From: Nautiliaceae bacterium
GTDB taxonomy: Bacteria; Campylobacterota; Campylobacteria; Campylobacterales; Nautiliaceae
DNA: 43,637 nt
Assembly: GCA_027062285.1 (NCBI GenBank)
Contig: JAMOTL010000035.1
Span: forward strand, 1-43,637
Reading direction: 5' to 3'
Part shown: in pieces, positions 8,732 through 18,216 of the stretch
Numbering within the stretch: position 1 is the stretch's first letter
Layout of the letters: each line of letters begins with the position of its first letter
Translations under genes and position numbers: made by a program
Notes under the pieces: generated by a model
Told to the model about the DNA's origin: nothing
Database searches by the model: none
Seen by the model: the letters and a program-made list of their open reading frames with translations, nothing else

Positions 8732-8760
8732 TAATGGTAGTGAGGGGGAGACTTGAACTC
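8732..8760. repeat. Attachment site, left end of the tRNA-Met element
   Basis: A 29-bp sequence beginning taatggtagtg and ending ttgaactc is identical to 18137-18165, the 3' end of tRNA-Met. Beyond it the sequences diverge. The gap from 8612 to 8994 otherwise holds the promoter of the upstream gene and the integrase arm sites; no gene is supported. Confidence 0.94.
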
Positions 8761-8876
8761 ACTCACTCTACATTTTCGTTGATTTTCATTGGTTTTTAAA
8801 TGTTCCTTATTTTCGGGCTTTTTGATTTTTACTTTTTGAGATGATATACTTTGATTTGCTATTAAATAGCTCAAAA

Positions 8877-8959
8877 GGGGACACCCAAGGGGACACCCAT
8901 TTGAAGAAAAGACTTAAAACTCCCGATACAATGGGAAAAATTAGCTTTTGGGTGTCCCC
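8877..8959. other. Candidate arm-type sites, left end of the tRNA-Met element
   Basis: GGGGACACCC occurs at 8877-8886 and 8889-8898, 12 bp apart, and inverted as GGGTGTCCCC at 8950-8959. The same motif pair occurs at 18073-18092 near the other end, about 11 bp apart. This GC-rich motif stands out in AT-rich DNA and fits integrase arm binding; the inverted copy is close to the integrase promoter region and may autoregulate it. Confidence 0.65.
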
Positions 8960-8994
8960 TATTATTAGGAGACCACCGAAAATAAGGAGTTTTT

Positions 8995-10086
8995 ATGGCT
9001 ATAAAAGTAAGCGATTATAAAGATATTGGACTACCGAATATTAAACAACACAAAAAAGATAAATTAAAATTTTTGATTCAGTTTAAACAAGATGGTAAAA
9101 AGGTTAGGAAAGTGATAACCCTTAAAGAAAGACCCAATTGGACGCTAAGAGAATATAAAAAAGAGCTTATGAGAATACTTGCCGAACTTAAAAACGACGT
9201 AGAGGCTGGATATAAACAAAATGAGTATATGAAAGTTGATGAATTGTTTGAACTTTTTATGCAAAATAATCCGACAAGTGAAAGCTGGGATAAAAAAAGA
9301 AAGGAAATATATAAAAGATACGCAAAGGATGAAATCGGCTCTAAAAGACTAAAAGACGTCAAACCTTTACATATCGGGAAAATTATATCAAAAATGAGAG
9401 ATAAAGGCTTATCACCTAATACCCAAAATAAAGTGCTGGTTATTTTGCGCCCAATGTTTGAGTTTGCAATTCACAACAAGCTCATAAAAGAAAATCCGGT
9501 AAAAGATATTCACATTAAACAAAAAGACACCAAAAAAATTGTAATAAACGCACAGGAGAAACTAAAAAGAATATATCAGGGTATTATGGAACTATATGCC
9601 GACGACCCTTATTATAGGGCATTTTTCCTTTTTGCACTCAGCGGTAGGAGAAAAAGTGAAATATTACAGCTTAGGTGGGAAAATATAGACCTTGAGAATA
9701 ATTACTATTGGATAGCGGACGCAAAGCCGAATGAAAATCAACGTTACGACCTGCCGCCATTAATCAAAGAGGCTCTGCTTGAACTTGGAGTTAAGCGTAA
9801 AGGCTGGGTATTTTATAGCTTTAATAATCCAGCAGAACATCTTAAAAAGCCTGATAGACAGGTTGATAAATTAAAAGAATATCTAAAAATGCCTGAATTC
9901 TCACTTCATTACTGCCGCCACATATTAGCCTCCGCACTTATAGAAAAAGGGATACCTACATCGATTGTTAGCGGTGTATTAGGACATAAAAACGCAACGA
10001 CTATCAACAGGTATGTAAGTATCAATTACCACACCTCTACTCAAAAAGCAAATCAGGAAATGCTTGAAATAATAGAGCCGAAATAA
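8995..10086 (+). CDS. Tyrosine recombinase (integrase) of the tRNA-Met element
   Basis: The 363-residue integrase has an N-terminal arm-binding region (about 1-60), a core-binding helical domain (about 70-165) and a catalytic domain. The visible catalytic set is SGRRKSEILQLRW (first Arg), FSLHYCRHILAS (HxxR), LGHKNATT (second His) and NRYVSI (Tyr nucleophile). AAGGAG sits six bases before the ATG. It differs from the integrase of the tRNA-Ser element, so the two islands are independent acquisitions. It reads inward from the left attachment site, about 235 bp away. Confidence 0.93.
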   Translation: MAIKVSDYKDIGLPNIKQHKKDKLKFLIQFKQDGKKVRKVITLKERPNWTLREYKKELMRILAELKNDVEAGYKQNEYMKVDELFELFMQNNPTSESWDKKRKEIYKRYAKDEIGSKRLKDVKPLHIGKIISKMRDKGLSPNTQNKVLVILRPMFEFAIHNKLIKENPVKDIHIKQKDTKKIVINAQEKLKRIYQGIMELYADDPYYRAFFLFALSGRRKSEILQLRWENIDLENNYYWIADAKPNENQRYDLPPLIKEALLELGVKRKGWVFYSFNNPAEHLKKPDRQVDKLKEYLKMPEFSLHYCRHILASALIEKGIPTSIVSGVLGHKNATTINRYVSINYHTSTQKANQEMLEIIEPK

Positions 10087-10267
10087 GCCTCTTTTTTCTT
10101 TTAGGTTTATATACATACCTGCTGAGGTGATTTTTTGATTGTAGGGCTGTTTTAGAGCGAATTAAGAGTATATTTTGTAGGATAATGAGCTACAAAAATT
10201 ATTTACACCCGTTTTTTGTTTCGATATATTATAGCAAACGAAATCAACCTCATCACTTATTATGTGA

Positions 10268-10273
10268 TATAAT
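10268..10273 (+). promoter_or_regulatory. Promoter of toxin-antitoxin module 1
   Basis: A TATAAT box lies at 10268-10273, 26 bp before the ATG. An inverted repeat ATCAC-N7-GTGAT overlaps it on the upstream side and may be an operator. The sequence from here through the start codon closely matches the region upstream of module 2. The rest of 10087-10299 holds no gene I can support. Confidence 0.6.
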
Positions 10274-10299
10274 AAATTAAATTATTCAGGAGTAATGCT

Positions 10300-10683
10300 A
10301 TGACAATGCAAATAGACTTAAGGAAAGTTTTTAAATTCGATAGGGAGCTCCAAAAACTTATAGGACAGCTTGAAATATTTAAAAATTTTTTGACTGCTCT
10401 TAATGCCGACGATTTATCTAAAAACGATAAAAGAGAGCTTATAGAAATCGCAAGGCTTTTGTGGGAACTTAAAGATGAAATACAAGACAATGAGGCTGTA
10501 TCTAAAATAAAAGAGCTTTTTAGACTTATCGCTTATAAAGTAGAAGAGGGAAAAACTGAAGAGGATAAAATTTGGGCTTTAAGAGGAGATATAGGTTATC
10601 TTGATTATTTAGAGGCAAAAGAAAAAGGAACTTTAATAACAGGAGACGCTGAAACGCTTATAAGGCAAATTGATGAGTTATAA
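10300..10683 (+). CDS. Putative antitoxin of module 1
   Basis: The 127-residue protein is predicted mostly helical and acidic. It starts MTMQIDLRKVFKFDRELQKLIG, closely resembling the start of the second module's first gene. I do not recognise the family; the antitoxin role is inferred from its place just upstream of, and overlapping by 11 bp, a RelE/YafQ-like toxin gene. CAGGAG precedes the ATG. It is longer than most RelE-family antitoxins (70-95 residues), and no classical HTH or ribbon-helix-helix is obvious. Confidence 0.6.
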   Translation: MTMQIDLRKVFKFDRELQKLIGQLEIFKNFLTALNADDLSKNDKRELIEIARLLWELKDEIQDNEAVSKIKELFRLIAYKVEEGKTEEDKIWALRGDIGYLDYLEAKEKGTLITGDAETLIRQIDEL

Positions 10684-10948
10684 GATAATAACAACCGATA
10701 AGTTTATGAAAAAACTTGCTAAGCTCATCAAGAAAAATCCTGAATTAAAACCGAAAATCGCTAAAACTTTTAAACTTATCGAAAATGATATTAATCATCC
10801 GTCTTTAAGACTTCACAAATTAAAAGGAGAATTAAGCGATAAATACAGCGTGTCGGTAGATATGAGTTACAGGATAATACTTGAATTTATTGTAACCGAA
10901 AAAGGCGTTATCCTGCTTGATATAGGCTCTCACGATGAGGTGTATTAA
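10673..10948 (+). CDS. RelE/YafQ-type toxin
   Basis: The 91-residue basic protein has the ParE/RelE fold signature: KFMKKLAKLIKKNPEL at the N-terminus, RLHKLKGELSDKYSVSVDMSYRIILEF in the middle, and a closing strand GVILLDIGSHDEVY typical of YafQ/HigB-like 'plasmid stabilization' proteins. Such toxins are usually ribosome-dependent mRNA endonucleases. I use the ATG at 10673, inside the end of the antitoxin gene, for translational coupling. The paired H..H and terminal H-D-E residues fit the YafQ branch, though the catalytic set cannot be confirmed by eye. Confidence 0.82.
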   Translation: MSYKIITTDKFMKKLAKLIKKNPELKPKIAKTFKLIENDINHPSLRLHKLKGELSDKYSVSVDMSYRIILEFIVTEKGVILLDIGSHDEVY

Positions 10949-10997
10949 ACACTATTTCCCTATCTGTGAATAAAAACTATCAAATCAAATTATGTGT

Positions 10998-11003
10998 TAT
11001 AAT
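10998..11003 (+). promoter_or_regulatory. Promoter of toxin-antitoxin module 2
   Basis: The TATAAT box lies 27 bp before the ATG at 11030. About 55 bp, from TATGTG before the box through the start codon, is nearly the same as upstream of module 1, including ATTCAGGAGTAA. Confidence 0.6.
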
Positions 11004-11029
11004 AAATTAAATCATTCAGGAGTAACACA

Positions 11030-11422
11030 ATGACTATGCAGATAAATCCGCTTAAAGTATTTAAACTAAATTTAAGCACTGATAATATTGAAGAGCTTAT
11101 TGGTAAAGCTAAATTAATAAATGAGATTATATCTACACTCCCCGATAATGAAGTTAAATCAAATAAAGATGAGTTTATTGCTTTTAGTAATGAGCTAAAT
11201 GAGCTTTTAGAGGAAATAGATGAAATTTTAATGAAAAAATATATAAAAGAGCTTGACCTGCTTTTTAAGGCTGTGAACGATATTATAGAAACTATTAGCG
11301 ATAAATTAGGCGAATATGCTGTGAAAAATATTATTATAAAGTCTGCAGATAGAGTAAACACTCAAAAAGATGAAGAGTTTATTAGTTTTGATGAGGTTAT
11401 AGAGGCGTTAAATGAAAATTGA
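11030..11422 (+). CDS. Putative antitoxin of module 2
   Basis: The 130-residue acidic helical protein begins MTMQINPLKVFKLN, sharing the MTMQI..(K)VFK start and a following LIG motif with the module 1 protein, then diverging. It overlaps the next toxin gene by 11 bp, the same overlap as in module 1. The C-terminus (EEFISFDEVIEALNEN) looks like the toxin-wrapping tail of Phd/RelB-like antitoxins (DEVIEAL is common there). The function is inferred from context. Confidence 0.62.
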   Translation: MTMQINPLKVFKLNLSTDNIEELIGKAKLINEIISTLPDNEVKSNKDEFIAFSNELNELLEEIDEILMKKYIKELDLLFKAVNDIIETISDKLGEYAVKNIIIKSADRVNTQKDEEFISFDEVIEALNEN

Positions 11423-11654
11423 AATATCTAAAACTGCTTTTAAGACGTTGAAAAAGATTGATAAAAAGTATCAAAAAATCATACTTGAAAAAATTAAACT
11501 GCTTGAAAGCTACCCCGATACTCCAAATATTAAAAAACTTACAAATCATTATCCGCCTTACAGGTTCAGGGTTGGCGATTACAGGGTTTTATTTGATGTG
11601 GAGGATGATATTATAAGAATACTTGATATAAAACATAGAAAAGAGGCATATTAA
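11412..11654 (+). CDS. RelE-family toxin
   Basis: This 80-residue protein is a clear RelE/ParE superfamily member: KTAFKTLKKIDKKYQKIILEKI, then KKLTNHYPPYRFRVGDYRVLFDV, and a closing IIRILDIKHRKEAY. The RVGDYRVLF and IKHRKEAY blocks are characteristic of RelE mRNA interferases, with R in GDYR and the terminal H-R-Y region as likely active-site positions. It differs from the module 1 toxin, which is of the YafQ branch. Its start lies inside the antitoxin gene. Confidence 0.9.
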   Translation: MKIEISKTAFKTLKKIDKKYQKIILEKIKLLESYPDTPNIKKLTNHYPPYRFRVGDYRVLFDVEDDIIRILDIKHRKEAY

Positions 11655-11680
11655 TGAAAGCACAAGTTTAGGTTTTTAAG

Positions 11681-11965
11681 ATGAAATATAACGATTGTAA
11701 TAGATTTTTAGAAATATATGAAATTGAAGTTGAACATTTTGACCTTGATACATTTGAAGAAGATTTGATGAATTTACCATACGAAATTGAAACAATAGGA
11801 GAAAATCTATCAAAATTAAATGATGAACAGCAAAGGAAATATTTTCATATTAATTCAAAACTTAGCAAACTGATTAAAAGATATAAACCTAAAAATCACA
11901 TTCAGAAATGGATAGTAAAAAAGACAAAGGAAAAATTATCTAAATATCCTCCACCTCATCCTTGA
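11681..11965 (+). CDS. Hypothetical protein next to the toxin-antitoxin modules
   Basis: The 94-residue soluble, mixed-charge helical protein (MKYNDCNRFLEIYEIEVEHF...) belongs to no family I recognise. It follows the second toxin by 27 bp but has no good ribosome binding site (GTTTTTAAG before the ATG). It converges with, and overlaps by 26 bp, the repressor gene. It may be an accessory of the stability region. Confidence 0.5.
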   Translation: MKYNDCNRFLEIYEIEVEHFDLDTFEEDLMNLPYEIETIGENLSKLNDEQQRKYFHINSKLSKLIKRYKPKNHIQKWIVKKTKEKLSKYPPPHP

Positions 11966-12836
11966 ATTTTAGTAACTTCTCTATTATCTTATCTTTAAAG
12001 GCAGGCGGGGCGTATTGCAGCAATTCGCATATCTGTTTGTCTTTTGGGTCGGTTGGGGCTGGGATAACTTCATTTTGTATTTTTTCCAGCTCTTTTTGTT
12101 TTTTGAGTTTTTTGATGTTTTCTATTGTGAGAGGTAAGCCGATGTCTTCTAAGTCTGCAAGGTCTTTTTTCATTAATTCAATTTTTATATTTATAAAATG
12201 CTCATCATTATCCCAATCCATTTTTTTTAATTTATTTTCAATGCAACGAATATTGTTGTTTTCAAATGACCTATTTTTTAAAAAATCAAAGTATATATTT
12301 ATATTTTCTTTAAAACAAGATGGTTTAATAGGTAAATTTTCAATTTTATATATAGTTAAAATAATAATAATTTCGTGAAAAATTAGTAAGCAATTGTTAT
12401 CTGTGTTGTTTATAAATCGTTCTTTAATTAATTTTTCAATATCTACATTCAGTAGCATTAAAGTAAACTCGTCAATTTTATACAATGAGTAATTAATAAT
12501 TGTTTTTTCTGTTTTTGAAGTAAAATCTCTTATTAAATCTTCATTAAGAAAATCTCCATAATAAAAATACAAAAATCGTCTAAACGCTTTTGAGAACTTA
12601 GTCAGCTCATACTCTTTTAATATTTCGTCTGTAATCTCATCAAACTTAAATATCTCATTATCCAAACCCTCTAAGGCACACACTGCTTTTACATACTTAT
12701 TTTCGGGAATAGCTGGTATTTTACCCATTTCTACTTTTTCTATTAATGATTTACTTACTTCTAAATATTCAGCAAATTTTTTTTGGCTCATTTTATATTT
12801 TTGTCTTATTTGTTTAATAAATTCATTCTTTTTCAC
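11940..12836 (-). CDS. XRE-type repressor of the tRNA-Met element
   Basis: The 298-residue protein has an N-terminal lambda-type HTH (FIKQIRQKYKMSQKKFAEYLEVSKSLIEKVEMG, about residues 5-38). A long helical, I/N/K-rich middle follows, with no known fold to my eye. The C-terminal helix ICELLQYAPPAFKDKIIEKLL may oligomerise. There is no LexA-type Ser/Lys protease motif, so release from repression would not be by RecA-driven cleavage; an antirepressor or satellite-type inducer is more likely. The start is GTG with AAGGGG upstream. It is divergent from the excisionase operon, across two operator dyads. Confidence 0.78.
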   Translation of the reverse strand: MKKNEFIKQIRQKYKMSQKKFAEYLEVSKSLIEKVEMGKIPAIPENKYVKAVCALEGLDNEIFKFDEITDEILKEYELTKFSKAFRRFLYFYYGDFLNEDLIRDFTSKTEKTIINYSLYKIDEFTLMLLNVDIEKLIKERFINNTDNNCLLIFHEIIIILTIYKIENLPIKPSCFKENINIYFDFLKNRSFENNNIRCIENKLKKMDWDNDEHFINIKIELMKKDLADLEDIGLPLTIENIKKLKKQKELEKIQNEVIPAPTDPKDKQICELLQYAPPAFKDKIIEKLLKFKDEVEDI

Positions 12837-12857
12837 ATCATTCCCCTTAAATATGAT

Positions 12858-12914
12858 TTGACAATAAGCATTAAATGATGTAAAATAACATCAATTGATG
12901 TATATAACACATCA
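12858..12914 (+). promoter_or_regulatory. Lysogeny-switch promoter with two operators
   Basis: TTGACA (12858-12863), a 17-bp spacer and TAAAAT (12881-12886) form a near-consensus promoter for the rightward operon. Two dyads of TGATGT/ACATCA overlap or follow it: TGATGT-N6-ACATCA at 12876-12893 and TGATGT-N7-ACATCA at 12896-12914. A further ACATCA half-site (12835-12840) lies at the repressor start codon. The arrangement fits repression of the operon and self-control by the adjacent XRE protein. Confidence 0.78.
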
Positions 12915-12967
12915 AAACAATTCTTTTGAAAGTATACCAAAAAACATACCACCTGAAAGGAGAGGCA

Positions 12968-13231
12968 ATGAATAGACAAGCATTGTTAGAGCAAATCGGT
13001 GTAGAGGAAATTCAAAGGCTTATGGCTGAGGCTATTAAAGAGATGGTAAAAAAAGAGTGGTTAACGCCTGAGGAGTTGCAAGAGGAATACGGCATAAGCA
13101 TTCACGCACAAAACCGTATGAGAATGGAAAGACGCATACCATACAGCAAAATAGGCAAATTCGTTAGATACAAAAGGAGTGAAATTGAAAAATGGCTTGA
13201 AGACCACAAAATCGAAATGATAGGCGGGTAA
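12968..13231 (+). CDS. Excisionase/AlpA-like HTH protein
   Basis: The 87-residue product has the Xis/AlpA pattern: EWLTPEELQEEYGISIHAQNRMRMERRIPYSKIGKFVRYKRSEIEKWLEDH (about residues 30-80), a helix-turn-helix followed by a wing (IGKFVRYKRSEIEKWL). The ATG at 12968 is favoured by AAAGGAGAGG just upstream; the ORF is open to 12926 but lacks a site there. As first gene of the repressor-controlled operon it probably promotes excision and may also act as an early regulator. Its end overlaps the next start (TAATG). Confidence 0.8.
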   Translation: MNRQALLEQIGVEEIQRLMAEAIKEMVKKEWLTPEELQEEYGISIHAQNRMRMERRIPYSKIGKFVRYKRSEIEKWLEDHKIEMIGG

Positions 13232-13542
13232 TGAAATCTATCAATTGGAGAACGCTTACCAGCCGTCGTGTAGTTAAGTGTATAGACAAGCTCTTAGCTG
13301 GAGAAGAGCTAAACAGGGCAACGAATAACTGCTCTTTTACGCATTTATCAAAAATAATCGTGGAGATAAGGAAATATATCGGCAAAGATGGAATTGTGAA
13401 TATACCAAGCGGTATAGGGAAAATTACAAGTTATAAGTTAGCAAATAATGATGAGGTAAGGCAAAGGTTATTAGAGCTAAAAGATGAGATTATTAGCAGA
13501 ATAGAGGCAAAAACCTCTACTAAGATTGACAATGAAAAATAA
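13231..13542 (+). CDS. Hypothetical protein, early operon gene 2
   Basis: The 103-residue basic protein (MKSINWRTLTSRRVVKCIDKLL...) has its start coupled to the upstream stop. It contains IIVEIRKYIGKDGIVNIPSGIGKITSYKL in the middle, which looks like a small alpha/beta domain. No family is recognised. The position in a tightly packed early operon suggests a regulatory or replication accessory role, which is only inference. Confidence 0.6.
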   Translation: MKSINWRTLTSRRVVKCIDKLLAGEELNRATNNCSFTHLSKIIVEIRKYIGKDGIVNIPSGIGKITSYKLANNDEVRQRLLELKDEIISRIEAKTSTKIDNEK

Positions 13543-13570
13543 GCACAAAATTATATCAAAAGGACTGACA

Positions 13571-13819
13571 ATGGAGAATAAGCAACAAACATTTCAGAAA
13601 AAAATATTAAGTTCAAAGTTAAATTATGCGAGAGAAAAATTTAATCACTCTGAAATAAAAGATTTTATAGAAAGTGAACTTGGGTTTGGTTTTGAGGATA
13701 TAGCGGTTTATGAGATGGTTGAAAATCAAAAAAAACTTAGACAATTACAGGCTGGTAATAGCGATATAGTAATAGTCGTTTATCAAAACGGGAATTGTGA
13801 TATTAGTTATCCATTGTAA
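13571..13819 (+). CDS. Hypothetical protein, early operon gene 3
   Basis: I use the ATG at 13571 (MENKQQTFQKKIL, 82 residues) because AAAGGA sits before it. The C-terminal half contains three short beta strands (DIVIVVYQNGNCDISYPL). A near-duplicate of the start region (GACAATG-AAAATAAG) lies about 40 bp upstream, so the frame is open earlier too. No family is recognised. Confidence 0.55.
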   Translation: MENKQQTFQKKILSSKLNYAREKFNHSEIKDFIESELGFGFEDIAVYEMVENQKKLRQLQAGNSDIVIVVYQNGNCDISYPL

Positions 13820-13828
13820 AGAGTTTAA

Positions 13829-14014
13829 ATGAACGCTGAGGTTAAAAAACTGCAATCATACATAACACTGCTTAAAAATGAAATCAATGAGTTAGAAAGG
13901 CTGGAAATAAACGATAACGGCACTATCCAGCCGCCACTGCTTTTGCTTTTAAACAACGCATACAAACAAATCAAATACGTCAGGTATCAGATAAAGGCGG
14001 ACAATGCAAAATAA
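13829..14014 (+). CDS. Hypothetical helical protein, early operon gene 4
   Basis: The 61-residue helical protein (MNAEVKKLQSYITLLKNEINELE...) is a likely coiled coil over residues 3-26 with a second helix (LLLLLNNAYKQIKYVRYQIKAD). It starts 9 bp after the previous stop and overlaps the next gene by 11 bp. No family is recognised. Confidence 0.55.
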   Translation: MNAEVKKLQSYITLLKNEINELERLEINDNGTIQPPLLLLLNNAYKQIKYVRYQIKADNAK

Positions 14015-14204
14015 ATGGCTCAGTATTGAAAAAATAAACACCTCAACAGATACAGCTATATTAAAAGAAACGGAAGAATTTTTTAATGAAATAGAGAAAG
14101 AGAAAAATATAGCTGCAAAAATATTGAATGAAATAGAAATGGAACATAAACGTTTAATCTCTAAATTTCTAAAGGACAATGATGAACTACAAAAAACAAG
14201 TTAA
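14004..14204 (+). CDS. Hypothetical helical protein, early operon gene 5
   Basis: The 66-residue acidic helical protein (MQNKWLSIEKINTSTDTAIL...) is preceded by AAAGGCGG. It overlaps both neighbours, by 11 bp upstream and 26 bp downstream. No family is recognised; small helical proteins of this kind in satellites are often regulators or phage-interference factors, but nothing here proves it. Confidence 0.55.
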   Translation: MQNKWLSIEKINTSTDTAILKETEEFFNEIEKEKNIAAKILNEIEMEHKRLISKFLKDNDELQKTS

Positions 14205-14409
14205 TCATTACTTAGGGATTGAATTTATAAAAAAGTCAATCTATTCGGATAATCAGATTAAAGCACTTACGGGAGTGAATTTATCACAGCTTAGGCACTT
14301 ATGGATTTTTAGTAGCCGCAACCGCTTTAAAGAGGCAGTGGATAATCTTATTCACAATGATGTGAAAATTGATTTTAAAAAGATAAACGGATATAAGGAG
14401 GGGAAATGA
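14179..14409 (+). CDS. Hypothetical protein, early operon gene 6
   Basis: The 76-residue basic protein contains YSDNQIKALTGVNLSQLRHLWIFSSRNRFKEAVDNL (about residues 21-57), which looks like a helix-turn-helix with a basic recognition helix. AAAGGA precedes the ATG. It overlaps the antirepressor gene by 4 bp. It may be a small DNA-binding protein; this is a weak call. Confidence 0.55.
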   Translation: MMNYKKQVNHYLGIEFIKKSIYSDNQIKALTGVNLSQLRHLWIFSSRNRFKEAVDNLIHNDVKIDFKKINGYKEGK

Positions 14410-15179
14410 ACTTACAGGTATTTAATGGGGAATTTGGAGCGATTAGAGTATTAAGAGATGAGGCAGGAGAGCCTTGGTTTGTATTAAATGAAGTTGCAAA
14501 AATCCTTGGAATAAAAAATATTACAGATTTAAAAAAAAGACTTAACCCAAAGGGGTTAGGTCAGACCGAACTCCTTACAAAAGGTGGAAAGCAGAAAGCT
14601 TATATAATCAATGAGCCGAATTTATTTAGGACTATTTTAAGAAGTGATAAGCCAGAGGCTAAAAGATTTGAAGATTGGCTGGTTGAGGAAGTATTACCGG
14701 CAATTAGAAAACACGGCTTATACGCCACAGATGATGTAATAGAAAAGACTTTAAATAATCCTGACTTTATGATTGAGATTTTACAAAAATTCAAAGAGGA
14801 AAAGCAAAAGAGAATAGAACTTCAGCAAGAACTCCAGCAAAACCAGCCTTATATAGTTTTTGCTAAGCAGGTAGAGACTTCCAAAACTTCTATTAAAATA
14901 AGAGAGTGGGCGAAAATCATAAGCAAGAGAGGCTATACAATAGGGCAGAACCGACTTTTTAAATGGTTAAGGGATAACGGCTATCTCATGATAAATAATG
15001 AGCCGTATCAGGTGTATATAGACAGGGGATATTTTGAAGTTAAAAGTAAGACAATTCATACACCTACAGGGGAAAAACAGGTTAAGACAACTTATATAAC
15101 TTCAAAAGGTCAGGTTGCGTTGACTGAAAAAATTATCGAGTTTTTAAAATCTAAGAAAGCGGCTTTACAAGCTGGATGA
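14406..15179 (+). CDS. BRO/KilAC phage antirepressor
   Basis: The N-terminal BRO-N domain (about residues 1-105) shows GAIRVLRDEAGEPWFVLNEVAKILGI and the closing EDWLVEEVLPAIRKHGLY. A coiled-coil linker follows (EEKQKRIELQQELQQ). The C-terminal KilAC/ANT domain has TSIKIREWAKIISKRGYTIGQNRLFKWLRDNGYLM and TTYITSKGQVALTEKI. This is the standard phage antirepressor, which lifts repression by a cI-type protein. A strong AAGGAGGGG precedes the ATG. Given the adjacent repressor without a protease motif, it is the likely inducer of the element. Confidence 0.93.
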   Translation: MNLQVFNGEFGAIRVLRDEAGEPWFVLNEVAKILGIKNITDLKKRLNPKGLGQTELLTKGGKQKAYIINEPNLFRTILRSDKPEAKRFEDWLVEEVLPAIRKHGLYATDDVIEKTLNNPDFMIEILQKFKEEKQKRIELQQELQQNQPYIVFAKQVETSKTSIKIREWAKIISKRGYTIGQNRLFKWLRDNGYLMINNEPYQVYIDRGYFEVKSKTIHTPTGEKQVKTTYITSKGQVALTEKIIEFLKSKKAALQAG

Positions 15180-15192
15180 GTAAGGATTATCA

Positions 15193-15360
15193 ATGAAAAA
15201 CGCTGAGGTAAAAATCTACAAATTAGACGACGGCTTATATCAGATAGAAGCAGGTAGAAAAGCTGTCGTATTAGCGGCTAAGAGCAGGTCTGAGGCAATA
15301 AAAAAGGCTTGCCGCTACCTGCCTATTGAGTGCAATAAAATCGCCTTACAGACCAAATAA
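15193..15360 (+). CDS. 55-residue hypothetical protein
   Basis: A short gene beginning MKNAEVKIYKLDDGLYQIEAG and ending ALQTK, with AAGGAT ahead of the ATG. The pattern beta-beta-alpha (VKIYKLDDGLYQIEAGRKAVVLAAKSRSEAIKKA split across strands and a helix) resembles small modified DNA-mimic or regulatory domains. It sits 13 bp after the antirepressor gene and 24 bp before the replication gene, in the same operon. No family is recognised. Confidence 0.6.
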   Translation: MKNAEVKIYKLDDGLYQIEAGRKAVVLAAKSRSEAIKKACRYLPIECNKIALQTK

Positions 15361-15384
15361 CAACCTCATCAAAAAGGGAAATTA

Positions 15385-16635
15385 ATGAGAGAGTTTATAA
15401 CGATAAGGCAAAAAGCCTTTTATGAGTTTCTAAGTGATTATAACAAAGATAAGCCAAAAGAGCAACAGATATGGCTGGATTTAAAAGATATAGCTATATT
15501 TGAGTATATAGCTCAGTTATGCACCACAGAACACGAAAAGATTAAGCAAAGCCGAATAATCATTGACGATACGGAATACACTCATATAGCTTACAAAAAG
15601 ATTATTGAGGATAATCCGCTTTTGTATATTAAAGCAAAAAACAAAGCTCAAGTATTGGGTAATAAGATAAATAAGTTAGTAAAAATTGGTTTACTAAATA
15701 AATATTTTTCTCAAGAAAAAGGCAGTAAAACATACTATACCTTATCACTAAAAGGTTATACCCTTATCACTGAAAAGTTAGAGGGGGTATCATCAAAAAG
15801 TGATAGGGGGTATCATTCAGAAATGAGAGGGGGTATCACTGAAAAGTTAGACAATAGTAAGTATAATATAGATAGTTATAATAGTAAGAATAAAATAGAA
15901 AGATTTAAATATATATACGCAAATCTCTCTTTTTTTGAAAAAAAACTTCTTATTCTCTTAGGGAACTTACAAAAACATTTTGAAACTTACAATCTAAAAG
16001 TTAACACCTATAAGAAACATTTAGAAATATTTAGGGGATTATCATCTAAGTATGAAGAACAAGACCTCATAACAGCTATATATGCAAGAGCCATTAAGGC
16101 AATAAAAGAGACAAGCGGTAGTCAGTTAAAGACAATAGCAAATCCTAACTTCCTAAAAGCAAGTATGGAGGATTTACTATTAGAGGCTAAGGAGTTCATG
16201 GAATATGAAGAGTTAGATGAGGATAGTATTGAGACTGAATTTTATTTTATGGCTGATGTTGGAACATATCTGAACTTTTATGGTGAAATAGACAGGTATT
16301 CAGGAGAGTTTATAGATAAAGCTGGTGATACAAAGAACATCGAAACATTAGAGGAAGATGTCTTCTTAATGAGAGAGTATTTAAAGCAGTCCGGAATTGA
16401 AATAGCAAGCAATATTAAATCGTTTCTATTAGGTAATGCTATTGAAAATGTAAAATATGACCTCATAATAGCTAAACGATTTTACATTCTTAATAATGAA
16501 AATTACAAAGATTATCTATATATTTTTGAGGATATAGATAAGATGTTAGAGTTTTTTAATAAGAAATTTTCAGTAAAAGAAATAAATTACGAAGAATTAA
16601 AGCAGCAATTAATGGAAAAAGTCTCAATCAAATAA
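15385..16635 (+). CDS. Replication initiator-like protein with embedded origin
   Basis: The 416-residue protein has an N-terminal winged-helix region (about residues 1-125, WLDLKDIAIFEYIAQLC.. to GLLNKYFSQEKGSKTYYTLS) like phage and plasmid replication proteins. A low-complexity linker follows (about 125-170, rich in S, K, G and N), then a helical C-terminal half. The linker DNA carries a 23-bp repeat array and an AT-rich tract. The design parallels lambda O, where the initiator gene contains its own origin. AAGGGA precedes the ATG. The sequence family is not recognised, so the call rests on architecture and the iterons. Confidence 0.65.
   Translation: MREFITIRQKAFYEFLSDYNKDKPKEQQIWLDLKDIAIFEYIAQLCTTEHEKIKQSRIIIDDTEYTHIAYKKIIEDNPLLYIKAKNKAQVLGNKINKLVKIGLLNKYFSQEKGSKTYYTLSLKGYTLITEKLEGVSSKSDRGYHSEMRGGITEKLDNSKYNIDSYNSKNKIERFKYIYANLSFFEKKLLILLGNLQKHFETYNLKVNTYKKHLEIFRGLSSKYEEQDLITAIYARAIKAIKETSGSQLKTIANPNFLKASMEDLLLEAKEFMEYEELDEDSIETEFYFMADVGTYLNFYGEIDRYSGEFIDKAGDTKNIETLEEDVFLMREYLKQSGIEIASNIKSFLLGNAIENVKYDLIIAKRFYILNNENYKDYLYIFEDIDKMLEFFNKKFSVKEINYEELKQQLMEKVSIK
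15732..15924 (+). other. Iteron array with AT-rich tract: candidate replication origin
   Basis: Five units of 23 bp begin at 15732, 15755, 15778, 15801 and 15824. Their 3' halves share TATCAxTxAAAAG-like sequence and the last three also share AGRGGGGGTATCA. The period is not a multiple of 3, so the repeats fall in different reading frames, showing selection at DNA level. About 80 bp of very AT-rich sequence (15847-15924) follows directly, as a strand-opening element would. Confidence 0.72.
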
Positions 16636-16740
16636 AACACTCTCAAATTGCCCTCTCACAGCCTCTACAATCAACGAAAATGGATTTTGGGTATGGTAAT
16701 GAGGTGTAGAGATGCTTATAATAGCTTTTTTCAATTGTGA

Positions 16741-16746
16741 TATAAT
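16741..16746 (+). promoter_or_regulatory. Probable -10 box for the small membrane protein
   Basis: TATAAT in the context GTGATATAATGAG, 28 bp before the ATG at 16775. It resembles the toxin-antitoxin promoters (GTGATATAATAAA), hinting at shared control within the element. Confidence 0.5.
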
Positions 16747-16774
16747 GAGTTATGATTATTTTAAGGCTGGATAA

Positions 16775-16966
16775 ATGAAAGATATTATTTTAATGTGGAA
16801 AATAGCAAGGTTTTTCATTGCTTTAACAATAGCGGTCATAAGCTGGGTGATATTGAATATTGTTTTAGCTTTTTTCATTAAAAGCGACATTGTGATTTTA
16901 ACCATCTCAACTTCTTTTATTTTACTTACGCTTTATCTCTATACCAAGGAACTTATAAGAGAATAA
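16775..16966 (+). CDS. Small two-span membrane protein
   Basis: The 63-residue protein has two hydrophobic segments, about residues 11-34 (FFIALTIAVISWVILNIVLAFF) and 39-57, separated by a short KSD turn. It has its own promoter-like sequence and AAGG ahead of the ATG. No family is recognised. Small membrane proteins at this position in satellites or prophages may be toxins, holin-like or superinfection-exclusion factors; this is speculation. Confidence 0.55.
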   Translation: MKDIILMWKIARFFIALTIAVISWVILNIVLAFFIKSDIVILTISTSFILLTLYLYTKELIRE

Positions 16967-16994
16967 GCGGGTCCTGCTTAGAGAGAATTTTGTC

Positions 16995-17275
16995 TGCGGG
17001 CACTTTCGACCGCAAAATTTACTCACACAATACGATTTTTTTAGGTTTACATATTTACACAATGATTTTTGAAACTTCTTTTTAAAAGCAAGTAATATCG
17101 GTGGGGTTTAAGCATTTTTTTAAAAATTATTGTGTAACATTATTGAAACTTTTAGGCTTACTTCAAGGAATGATTTTATAGAGGTTACATTATATACCGG
17201 TTTTCCATTCTTTGAATATTTGAAGTAAAAATTTTCGTTATGAGTGTATGAAATTTGGAGTCGCGAGTGCCCGCA
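16995..17275. repeat. Nested inverted-repeat region, non-coding
   Basis: Perfect 10-bp ends TGCGGGCACT (16995-17004) and AGTGCCCGCA (17266-17275) extend imperfectly to about 25 bp. Inside lie ACACAATGATTTTT (17057-17070) against AAAAATTATTGTGT (17122-17135), and TTACTTCAA against TTGAAGTAA with a GGAATG/CATTC pair around 17158-17230. The whole 280 bp could fold into several stems. It may be a MITE-like insertion or a structured RNA or DNA site. No gene is seen between 16967 and 18139. Confidence 0.6.
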
Positions 17276-17291
17276 AATGAAATTCAAGCAA

Positions 17292-17334
17292 AAAAGGACC
17301 CAACAGGGACATTAAAAAGTCAGCGGGTCCTTTT
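17292..17334. terminator. Stem-loop, possible terminator
   Basis: AAAAGGACCC (17292-17301) pairs perfectly with GGGTCCTTTT (17325-17334) around a 23-base loop. It could end transcription in either direction. The right arm sits in AGCGGGTCCT, which also occurs at about 16968, so recombination history is another reading. Confidence 0.45.
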
Positions 17335-17385
17335 AGGTGAAAATCGCCTGCGGTGGTCGCCAACCCCAGTTTTCACACACACAAA

Positions 17386-17602
17386 GTTAACTAAAAAGTG
17401 GTTAACATTCTTGACAAAATGCTTAATATCCCCGAAATATAGGGATTTTTAAAGAGGTAACCGATGTCAACCAGTTAACTATCGGTTGACAAATTTAGTT
17501 AACTTTTTCTTATAAGCTCACCGAAATTTAGGGCTTTTGAGAGAGTTAACCAAAAAGTTAACCACTTGACAAAAAGTTAACCAGCAGAGTTAACCAGTTA
17601 AC
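17386..17602. repeat. GTTAAC repeat array
   Basis: Nine exact GTTAAC palindromes start at 17386, 17401, 17474, 17498, 17545, 17557, 17576, 17589 and 17597, plus a GGTAAC variant at 17456. Several extend to AGTTAACC. A larger dyad, TGTCAACC...GGTTGACA, encloses the copy at 17474, and a degenerate 40-bp unit (CCGAAATWTAGGG.TTTT..AGAG) is duplicated at about 17430 and 17520. This is a probable protein-binding array such as a centromere, replication or packaging site. Confidence 0.75.
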
Positions 17603-17887
17603 TTTTGAGAGAGGGTGGGTTAAAAATTATTTACCCTACATATTAGCAATCGGACGCCCAACACTGAAAAAACAAAAACCGCTTTTAAGGTAGAGGGGGT
17701 ATCCTGCTTACCGACCCCTTGCTAAGCCCCTGCCTAAGCCCAGCAATACAACACCCGTATACTGATTATTAATTCCCTTTTAATAGGCATAATTCAAGCT
17801 ATAAGTGAAAAAAAGCAATACAAATTCCCAGCTTTTGCCTGTAAAAGTGAACGGGTTATCAGAAAAAATCAACAGGATTTTTGAAAA

Positions 17888-17970
17888 GGAAACAAAAGGA
17901 AACACGACTTTTAAAGTTTCCAAAGGTTTCCATTAAAGAATAAACTAAACACTGCTAAACAAAACTAAAC
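17888..17970. repeat. GGAAAC/GTTTCC dyad and 10-bp-phased CTAAAC repeats
   Basis: GGAAAC at 17888 and 17898 faces GTTTCC at 17916 and 17926, forming a dyad with 10-bp spacing inside each arm. Downstream, CTAAAC occurs at 17945, 17955 and 17965, exactly 10 bp apart. One-helical-turn spacing suggests co-operative protein binding on one DNA face. Confidence 0.6.
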
Positions 17971-18072
17971 GGATTTTGATTTTTTTTTAGAGAAAATATA
18001 TTTTGTTAACTAAATTTTATTCTTCTTGAAGAAGATATTTAGAAGTTAAATTTTGAGAAAATTGCTTACTAA

Positions 18073-18092
18073 GGGACACCCAAGGGGACACC
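18073..18092 (+). other. Candidate arm-type sites, right end of the tRNA-Met element
   Basis: GGGACACCC (18073-18081) and GGGGACACC (18084-18092) repeat the motif pair found at 8877-8898 in the left end. They lie 45 bp inside the right att core. Confidence 0.65.
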
Positions 18093-18136
18093 TCATCAAT
18101 TTTTAAGCTATCAAAACATCGATTTTATGGGAGTTT

Positions 18137-18165
18137 TAATGGTAGTGAGGGGGAGACTTGAACTC
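18137..18165. repeat. Attachment site, tRNA-Met end (right att)
   Basis: 29 bp identical to 8732-8760; 26 of them are the 3' end of tRNA-Met including CCA. The tRNA is complete on this side. Confidence 0.94.
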
Positions 18166-18216
18166 CCGACCTCCGGCTTATGAGACCGGCGCTCTAGCCA
18201 GCTGAGCTACCCCACC
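18140..18216 (-). tRNA. tRNA-Met (anticodon CAT)
   Basis: Read on the minus strand, the acceptor GGTGGGG pairs with CCTCACT (two G-U pairs) before A-CCA. The D arm begins TAGCTCAG. The anticodon stem CCGGT/GCCGG encloses CTCATAA, anticodon CAT, and the T arm is GGGAG-TTCAAGT-CTCCC. The first base pair is G-U, not the C-A mismatch of initiator tRNA, so it is an elongator Met tRNA or, less likely, an Ile2 tRNA whose C is modified to lysidine. It is the integration site of the second element. Confidence 0.93.

Follow-up and report, generated by a model that had tools for sequence, protein, structure and literature searches.

Two tandem toxin-antitoxin modules on a Nautiliaceae integrative element appear to join a new helical antitoxin head to different tails and RelE-superfamily toxins

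Modular type II antitoxins are a known kind, in which a DNA-binding or otherwise folded part is combined with an exchangeable neutralising element (PMC10440598). The locus described here resembles the Panacea or promiscuous antitoxins and NetFlax (PMC8832971, PMC10440598) in that one antitoxin domain occurs with several toxins and neutralising elements seem exchangeable, while it differs from them in an unrelated domain, in its restriction to one bacterial family and in toxins of the RelE superfamily only. Compared with RelBE systems, including archaeal RelBE (PDB 3bpq RelE3, 1wmi PHS013), the second toxin matches in sequence, the antitoxin gene comes first and overlaps the toxin gene, and the antitoxin has a RelB-like C-terminal tail, but no relation could be detected between the helical head of this antitoxin and the short RelB-like antitoxins encoded with the relatives of this toxin. 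The Phd/YefM plus RelE/YafQ-like pairs of Campylobacteria (e.g. L018, L104-L122) share with the first module the 11-nt gene overlap, which is common among them, and contain toxins up to 64% identical to its toxin; their antitoxin is, however, a Phd/YefM protein of about 84 aa, to which the first antitoxin is unrelated in its head and weakly similar in its tail. DinJ-YafQ pairs, including that of the H. pylori tfs4 ICE (PMC7584586), likewise combine a YafQ-like toxin and overlapping genes, in that case on a mobile element of Campylobacterota, but have DinJ-family antitoxins, and the first toxin here falls far below the YafQ cut-off. The twin modules appear to be another instance of the mixing and matching by which toxin-antitoxin (TA) modules are known to evolve, with only the head family being new.

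The window, i.e. the whole analysed stretch of 43,637 nucleotides, belongs to the 1.55-Mb genome of a hydrothermal-vent-type bacterium, and the nearest named relatives carrying this antitoxin are Nautiliaceae metagenome assemblies. A complete element of about 9.4 kb (8732-18165) is integrated in the 3' end of a tRNA-Met gene (18140-18216, minus strand). It is bounded by an exact 29-bp direct repeat of the tRNA-Met 3' end, with the attL core at 8732-8760 and the attR core, situated within the 3' end of the tRNA gene itself, at 18137-18165. The element carries a tyrosine integrase (8995-10086, plus strand; Pfam Phage_integrase, E=7e-20; phrog_1, E=2e-43), the two TA modules adjoining it, two HTH genes, one repressor-like and one excisionase-like, and an Ant-type antirepressor. 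The element genes that were scanned included none recognisable as encoding a capsid or another structural protein, and PADLOC returned nothing meaningful. Repeats of the GGGACACC type close to both element ends (8878 and 18073) look like integrase arm sites. Nine of the 15 GTTAAC motifs of the window are clustered within 240 bp (17380-17620) in a long gene-poor stretch and may represent the iterons of a replication origin; upstream of the cluster lies an ORF of 416 aa (15385-16635) for which no Pfam or PHROG family was matched. A further ORF of 94 aa (11681-11965), located between the second toxin and the repressor-like gene, matched no family either; it was considered as a relative of the second antitoxin and ruled out, as the two were unrelated on comparison.

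Both modules are encoded on the plus strand. The first comprises antitoxin AT1 (10300-10683, 127 aa) and toxin tox1 (10673-10948, 91 aa), the second antitoxin AT2 (11030-11422, 130 aa) and toxin tox2 (11412-11654, 80 aa). Antitoxin and toxin genes overlap by 11 nt in each pair and all four genes are intact. The original prediction had given these positions, lengths and overlaps correctly, as well as the common antitoxin start 'MTMQI..KVFK'. The antitoxins are acidic (pI 4.8 for AT1 and 4.4 for AT2) and the toxins basic (9.4 for tox1 and 9.6 for tox2). Judged from their genes, which are small and overlapping, with an acidic antitoxin followed by a basic toxin of known family, both have the make-up of type II TA modules. 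The 11-nt overlap had been put forward as a feature of the twins; it does occur in both, but it does not mark them out, being found also in a relative of AT2/tox2 (G018) and frequently among the relatives of tox1 and of tox2 that have other antitoxins.

Tox2 could be placed in the RelE/ParE superfamily by Pfam ParE_toxin (E=1e-12; 48.8 bits against a cut-off of 23), phrog_1213 (E=1e-20) and the PDB entry RelE3 3bpq (E=6e-6). For tox1, the best named profiles were YafQ and RelE/StbE, all below their curated cut-offs. Membership of the YafQ family, for which TIGR00053 gave 34.8 bits against 87.25 and Pfam YafQ_toxin PF15738 26.5 against 30, was not obtained, so that of the description 'YafQ-like' only a loose likeness holds. 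The superfamily profiles ParE_toxin (22.6 bits, cut-off 23) and RelE_StbE (26.3, cut-off 27.9) were missed narrowly, and phrog_1213 gave a RelE-like match (E=2e-8). The tox1 family is widespread in Campylobacteria. Both toxins keep the residues conserved among their own relatives, in tox1 among others H48, K49, S61, Y66, R67 and H87. They are barely similar to each other and match different profiles, in agreement with the original view that the toxins differ, and represent separate branches of the RelE superfamily. From what is known of the family, we take both to be mRNA interferases, presumably ribosome-dependent.

In Pfam, NCBIfam and PHROGs no meaningful match to either antitoxin was obtained, and PDB sequence and fold searches yielded only chance-like matches to helical proteins. 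The AlphaFold model of AT2 is a helical bundle, ordered to about residue 93 and followed by a tail (97-130) with a pLDDT of about 35-40 and a terminal helix; that of AT1 resembles it, with an additional helix and a short tail, the last 30 residues having a pLDDT of about 45-66. With only five readable members and one relic in the head family, both models reach no more than moderate confidence (mean pLDDT 69-73) and no solved fold was matched. AT1 has no N-terminal Phd/YefM domain (no Pfam match; head against the Phd-type profile, E=0.32) and AT2 no strand-helix-helix domain of the RelB or ribbon-helix-helix kind (no Pfam match; head against the RelB-like profile, E=0.11), both models being all-helical; throughout the hhalign comparisons of heads with partner profiles E stayed at about 0.1-0.3, with neither Phd-type nor RelB-like antitoxins being matched. 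The earlier description of helical antitoxins without a recognised DNA-binding fold agrees with these results. It had further been stated that the antitoxins diverge after a common N-terminus. This is not simply so: the bodies are about 29% identical, but AT1 deprived of residues 1-12 still exceeded all of 5000 ordinary and all of 5000 hydrophobicity-preserving shuffles against the profile of the AT2 lineage, and because the match persists without these residues AT1 is assigned to the same family as AT2. The homology extends through the helical head (residues ~7-93), which is acidic overall. As far as the Pfam, NCBIfam and PHROG libraries go, the predicted head family is new, as the original prediction had suspected. 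Of the 'common regulatory head' proposed there, the shared head stands; the word 'regulatory' found no backing in a DNA-binding fold or a conserved operator.

The usual partners of tox1 relatives in Campylobacteria are Phd/YefM-type antitoxins of about 84 aa, for which Pfam PhdYeFM was the best of the two profiles scanned, but below cut-off; 29 of them, taken from those tox1 relatives whose upstream gene could be read, formed the Phd-type tail set. Most tox2 relatives are paired with short antitoxins of RelB-like type, and one of these scores above the RelB cut-off. Since their codons overlap the toxin gene, the last four residues of each tail were removed before comparison. The AT2 tail scored 15.0 bits against the RelB-like tail profile, a value reached by none of 3000 shuffles and lying above all 29 Phd-type tails; the tails of the relatives in G018 and G014 behaved in the same way, and hhalign placed the tail of the AT2 lineage with RelB-like (E=5.7e-5) and not with Phd tails (E=0.29). 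For AT1 the Phd profile gave 2.2 bits (p=0.03 against shuffles, with 18 of 45 tails of the other class scoring higher), a weaker result than the pairwise comparison with Phd tails (p=0.004), and hhalign gave a weak E=0.007 for Phd and 0.08 for RelB-like; as tail cuts, set memberships and scoring methods were picked after the sequences had been seen, the AT1 values especially should be read with caution. The view that each tail is clearly of the type found in its toxin's usual partners was therefore given up: it holds for AT2 and only weakly for AT1. Based on these profile and hhalign results, AT2 is predicted to be a new head with a RelB-like toxin-binding tail, like the usual partners of tox2, and a Phd-like tail in AT1 is plausible. 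Some of the more distant tox1 relatives (L125, L031, L032, L039 and L040) have RelB-like and not Phd-type partners, for which reason antitoxins appear to have been exchanged on more than one occasion in this toxin family.

We take it that the tails occlude the toxins, presumably by wrapping round them. It could be argued instead that the folded surface of the head neutralises the toxin, in a Panacea-like manner, and that the tail similarity is incidental. One head family occurring with three different RelE-like toxins would fit this, as would the poor assignment of the AT1 tail, but the AT2-lineage tail is far more like those of the antitoxins usually found with this toxin than shuffled sequences are, and flexible tails, as predicted here, go with linear neutralisation; we regard neutralisation by the head as quite unlikely.

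Outside the Nautiliaceae nothing credible related to the antitoxins was found in viral contigs, plasmids, phages or about 400 Campylobacteria genomes; the latter were searched with alignment A1, and a phylum-level draw returned essentially the same genomes. Within the family, the relative in G018 (L073) is 71% identical to AT2 and is accompanied by a tox2 relative of 79% identity. That in G016 (L074) is 77% identical to AT2; there, at L074 202-612, the antitoxin head is fused to the last ~14 toxin residues by a deletion, which has apparently removed the tail and the toxin body. A distant member in G014 (L075, 36% identical) is paired with a third RelE-like toxin, and directly after this pair a third small gene (2390-2629, 79 aa) without a Pfam match was observed. 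In another genus (G015, L010), an AT2 relic decayed by frameshifts and stops ends about 30 bp from its tRNA-Met gene. The decay in G015 and the deletion fusion in G016 could point to modules that are degenerate or silent, without an active toxin; given the four intact genes of the window and toxins that retain their family-conserved residues, this appears improbable for the twins.

The two modules share a leader. Leader 1 (10259-10314, plus strand) contains an extended -10 (TGATATAAT), the 5' UTR, a ribosome-binding site and codons 1-5 of AT1, the -10 and the ribosome-binding site having been read off the sequence; leader 2 (10989-11044, plus strand) is 88% identical to it. This direct repeat, with 49 of 56 nt identical, bears out the near-identity from the -10 box through the start codon that was originally noted. 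The next-best match to it in the window reached 33/56 on the strand of the leaders and 34/56 on the opposite one, and the two leaders form the only strong pair of the whole genome (E=5e-14; next E=0.007, not near a TA gene), so that the repeat is not due to chance. Ahead of the -10 region only 17 of 39 positions are the same in both leaders, and after about codon 5 the DNA identity of the twins falls off.

The extended -10 TGnTATAAT, an ordinary promoter feature in Campylobacterota, is present in both leaders and in those of all relatives. Apart from it, no operator conserved with the antitoxin head was found in the relatives' leaders. A candidate operator, ATCAACCTCA, which lies upstream of AT1 and recurs in inverted orientation before the G016 copy, was discarded in view of 63 near-matches in the window and an inconsistent position. 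A consensus promoter scan gave no more matches than shuffles, and an RNA structure common to the leaders was unsupported (z = 0.7 and 0.8).

Of the 41 positions before the start codon, leaders 1 and 2 have 36 in common. The leader of the relic in G015 shares 32/41 with leader 1 and 28/41 with leader 2, while those of G018, G016 and G014 agree with either at 19-21/41, near the other pairs in the set. Along 470 nt that take in the leader, the G015 relic is 81% identical in nucleotides to the AT2 region; its match to the AT1 region is limited to the 56-nt leader. As this AT2 relic carries the leader, the latter most likely belongs to the AT2 lineage.

The original prediction had suggested for the twins duplication followed by toxin replacement. 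A fuller version would have one module duplicated in tandem, the bodies then diverging and toxin 1 being replaced, while selection preserved the leader as a shared operator for cross-regulation. The homologous heads and the 88% identity of the leaders agree with such a history, and so does a 7-bp inverted repeat over the -10 box of leader 1 (TTATTAT-N5-ATAATAA), reduced in leader 2, as read from the sequence, to 5 bp per arm. However, the leaders of AT2 relatives with 71-77% protein identity show no greater likeness than those of unrelated loci, no operator beyond the extended -10 accompanies the head, and the G015 relic has an AT2-type leader while AT1 is only distantly similar to AT2. Plain duplication was consequently not supported, and we consider this history unlikely. 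Recombination at the leader and start region fits better, because an 88% identical leader sits on antitoxins of about 29% identity, which uniform divergence does not explain. By recombination, the AT2-type leader and start region would have come to stand before an AT1 module that had already diverged, or have been imposed on it by homogenisation; the direction and timing of the event are read from the single relic in G015. As the relic at the tRNA-Met gene is single-copy, it suggests that the single-module state came first, and we infer that module 1 could also be lost through recombination between the direct repeats.

Taken together, we consider it probable that the element carries two tandem type II modules whose antitoxins consist of a folded helical head, of a new family restricted to Nautiliaceae, and a flexible C-terminal tail, that tail-toxin units have been recombined, and that the AT2-type leader moved onto AT1. 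The head presumably dimerises and may regulate. It would have been combined with different tail-plus-toxin units, RelB-like by sequence in AT2 and, suggestively, nearest the Phd-type in AT1. Stabilisation of the element and phage defence are the usual proposals for TA modules; here, element stabilisation would be the likely role, and possibly defence.

The locus is a tractable case, since the usual partners of each toxin, the new head, its pairing with a third toxin and a relic with a single module can all be seen, and the modular-antitoxin model of a fold with an exchangeable tail can therefore be tested on it. It also adds an antitoxin family missed by current libraries, as a result of which genes upstream of such RelE-like toxins stay unannotated. 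More tentatively, and with a fair share of doubt, the head may be a reusable chassis on Nautiliaceae mobile elements, with recombination at the leader/start and at the head-tail boundary swapping tail-plus-toxin units. If so, tandem modules under near-identical leaders would accumulate in these bacteria and may cross-regulate.
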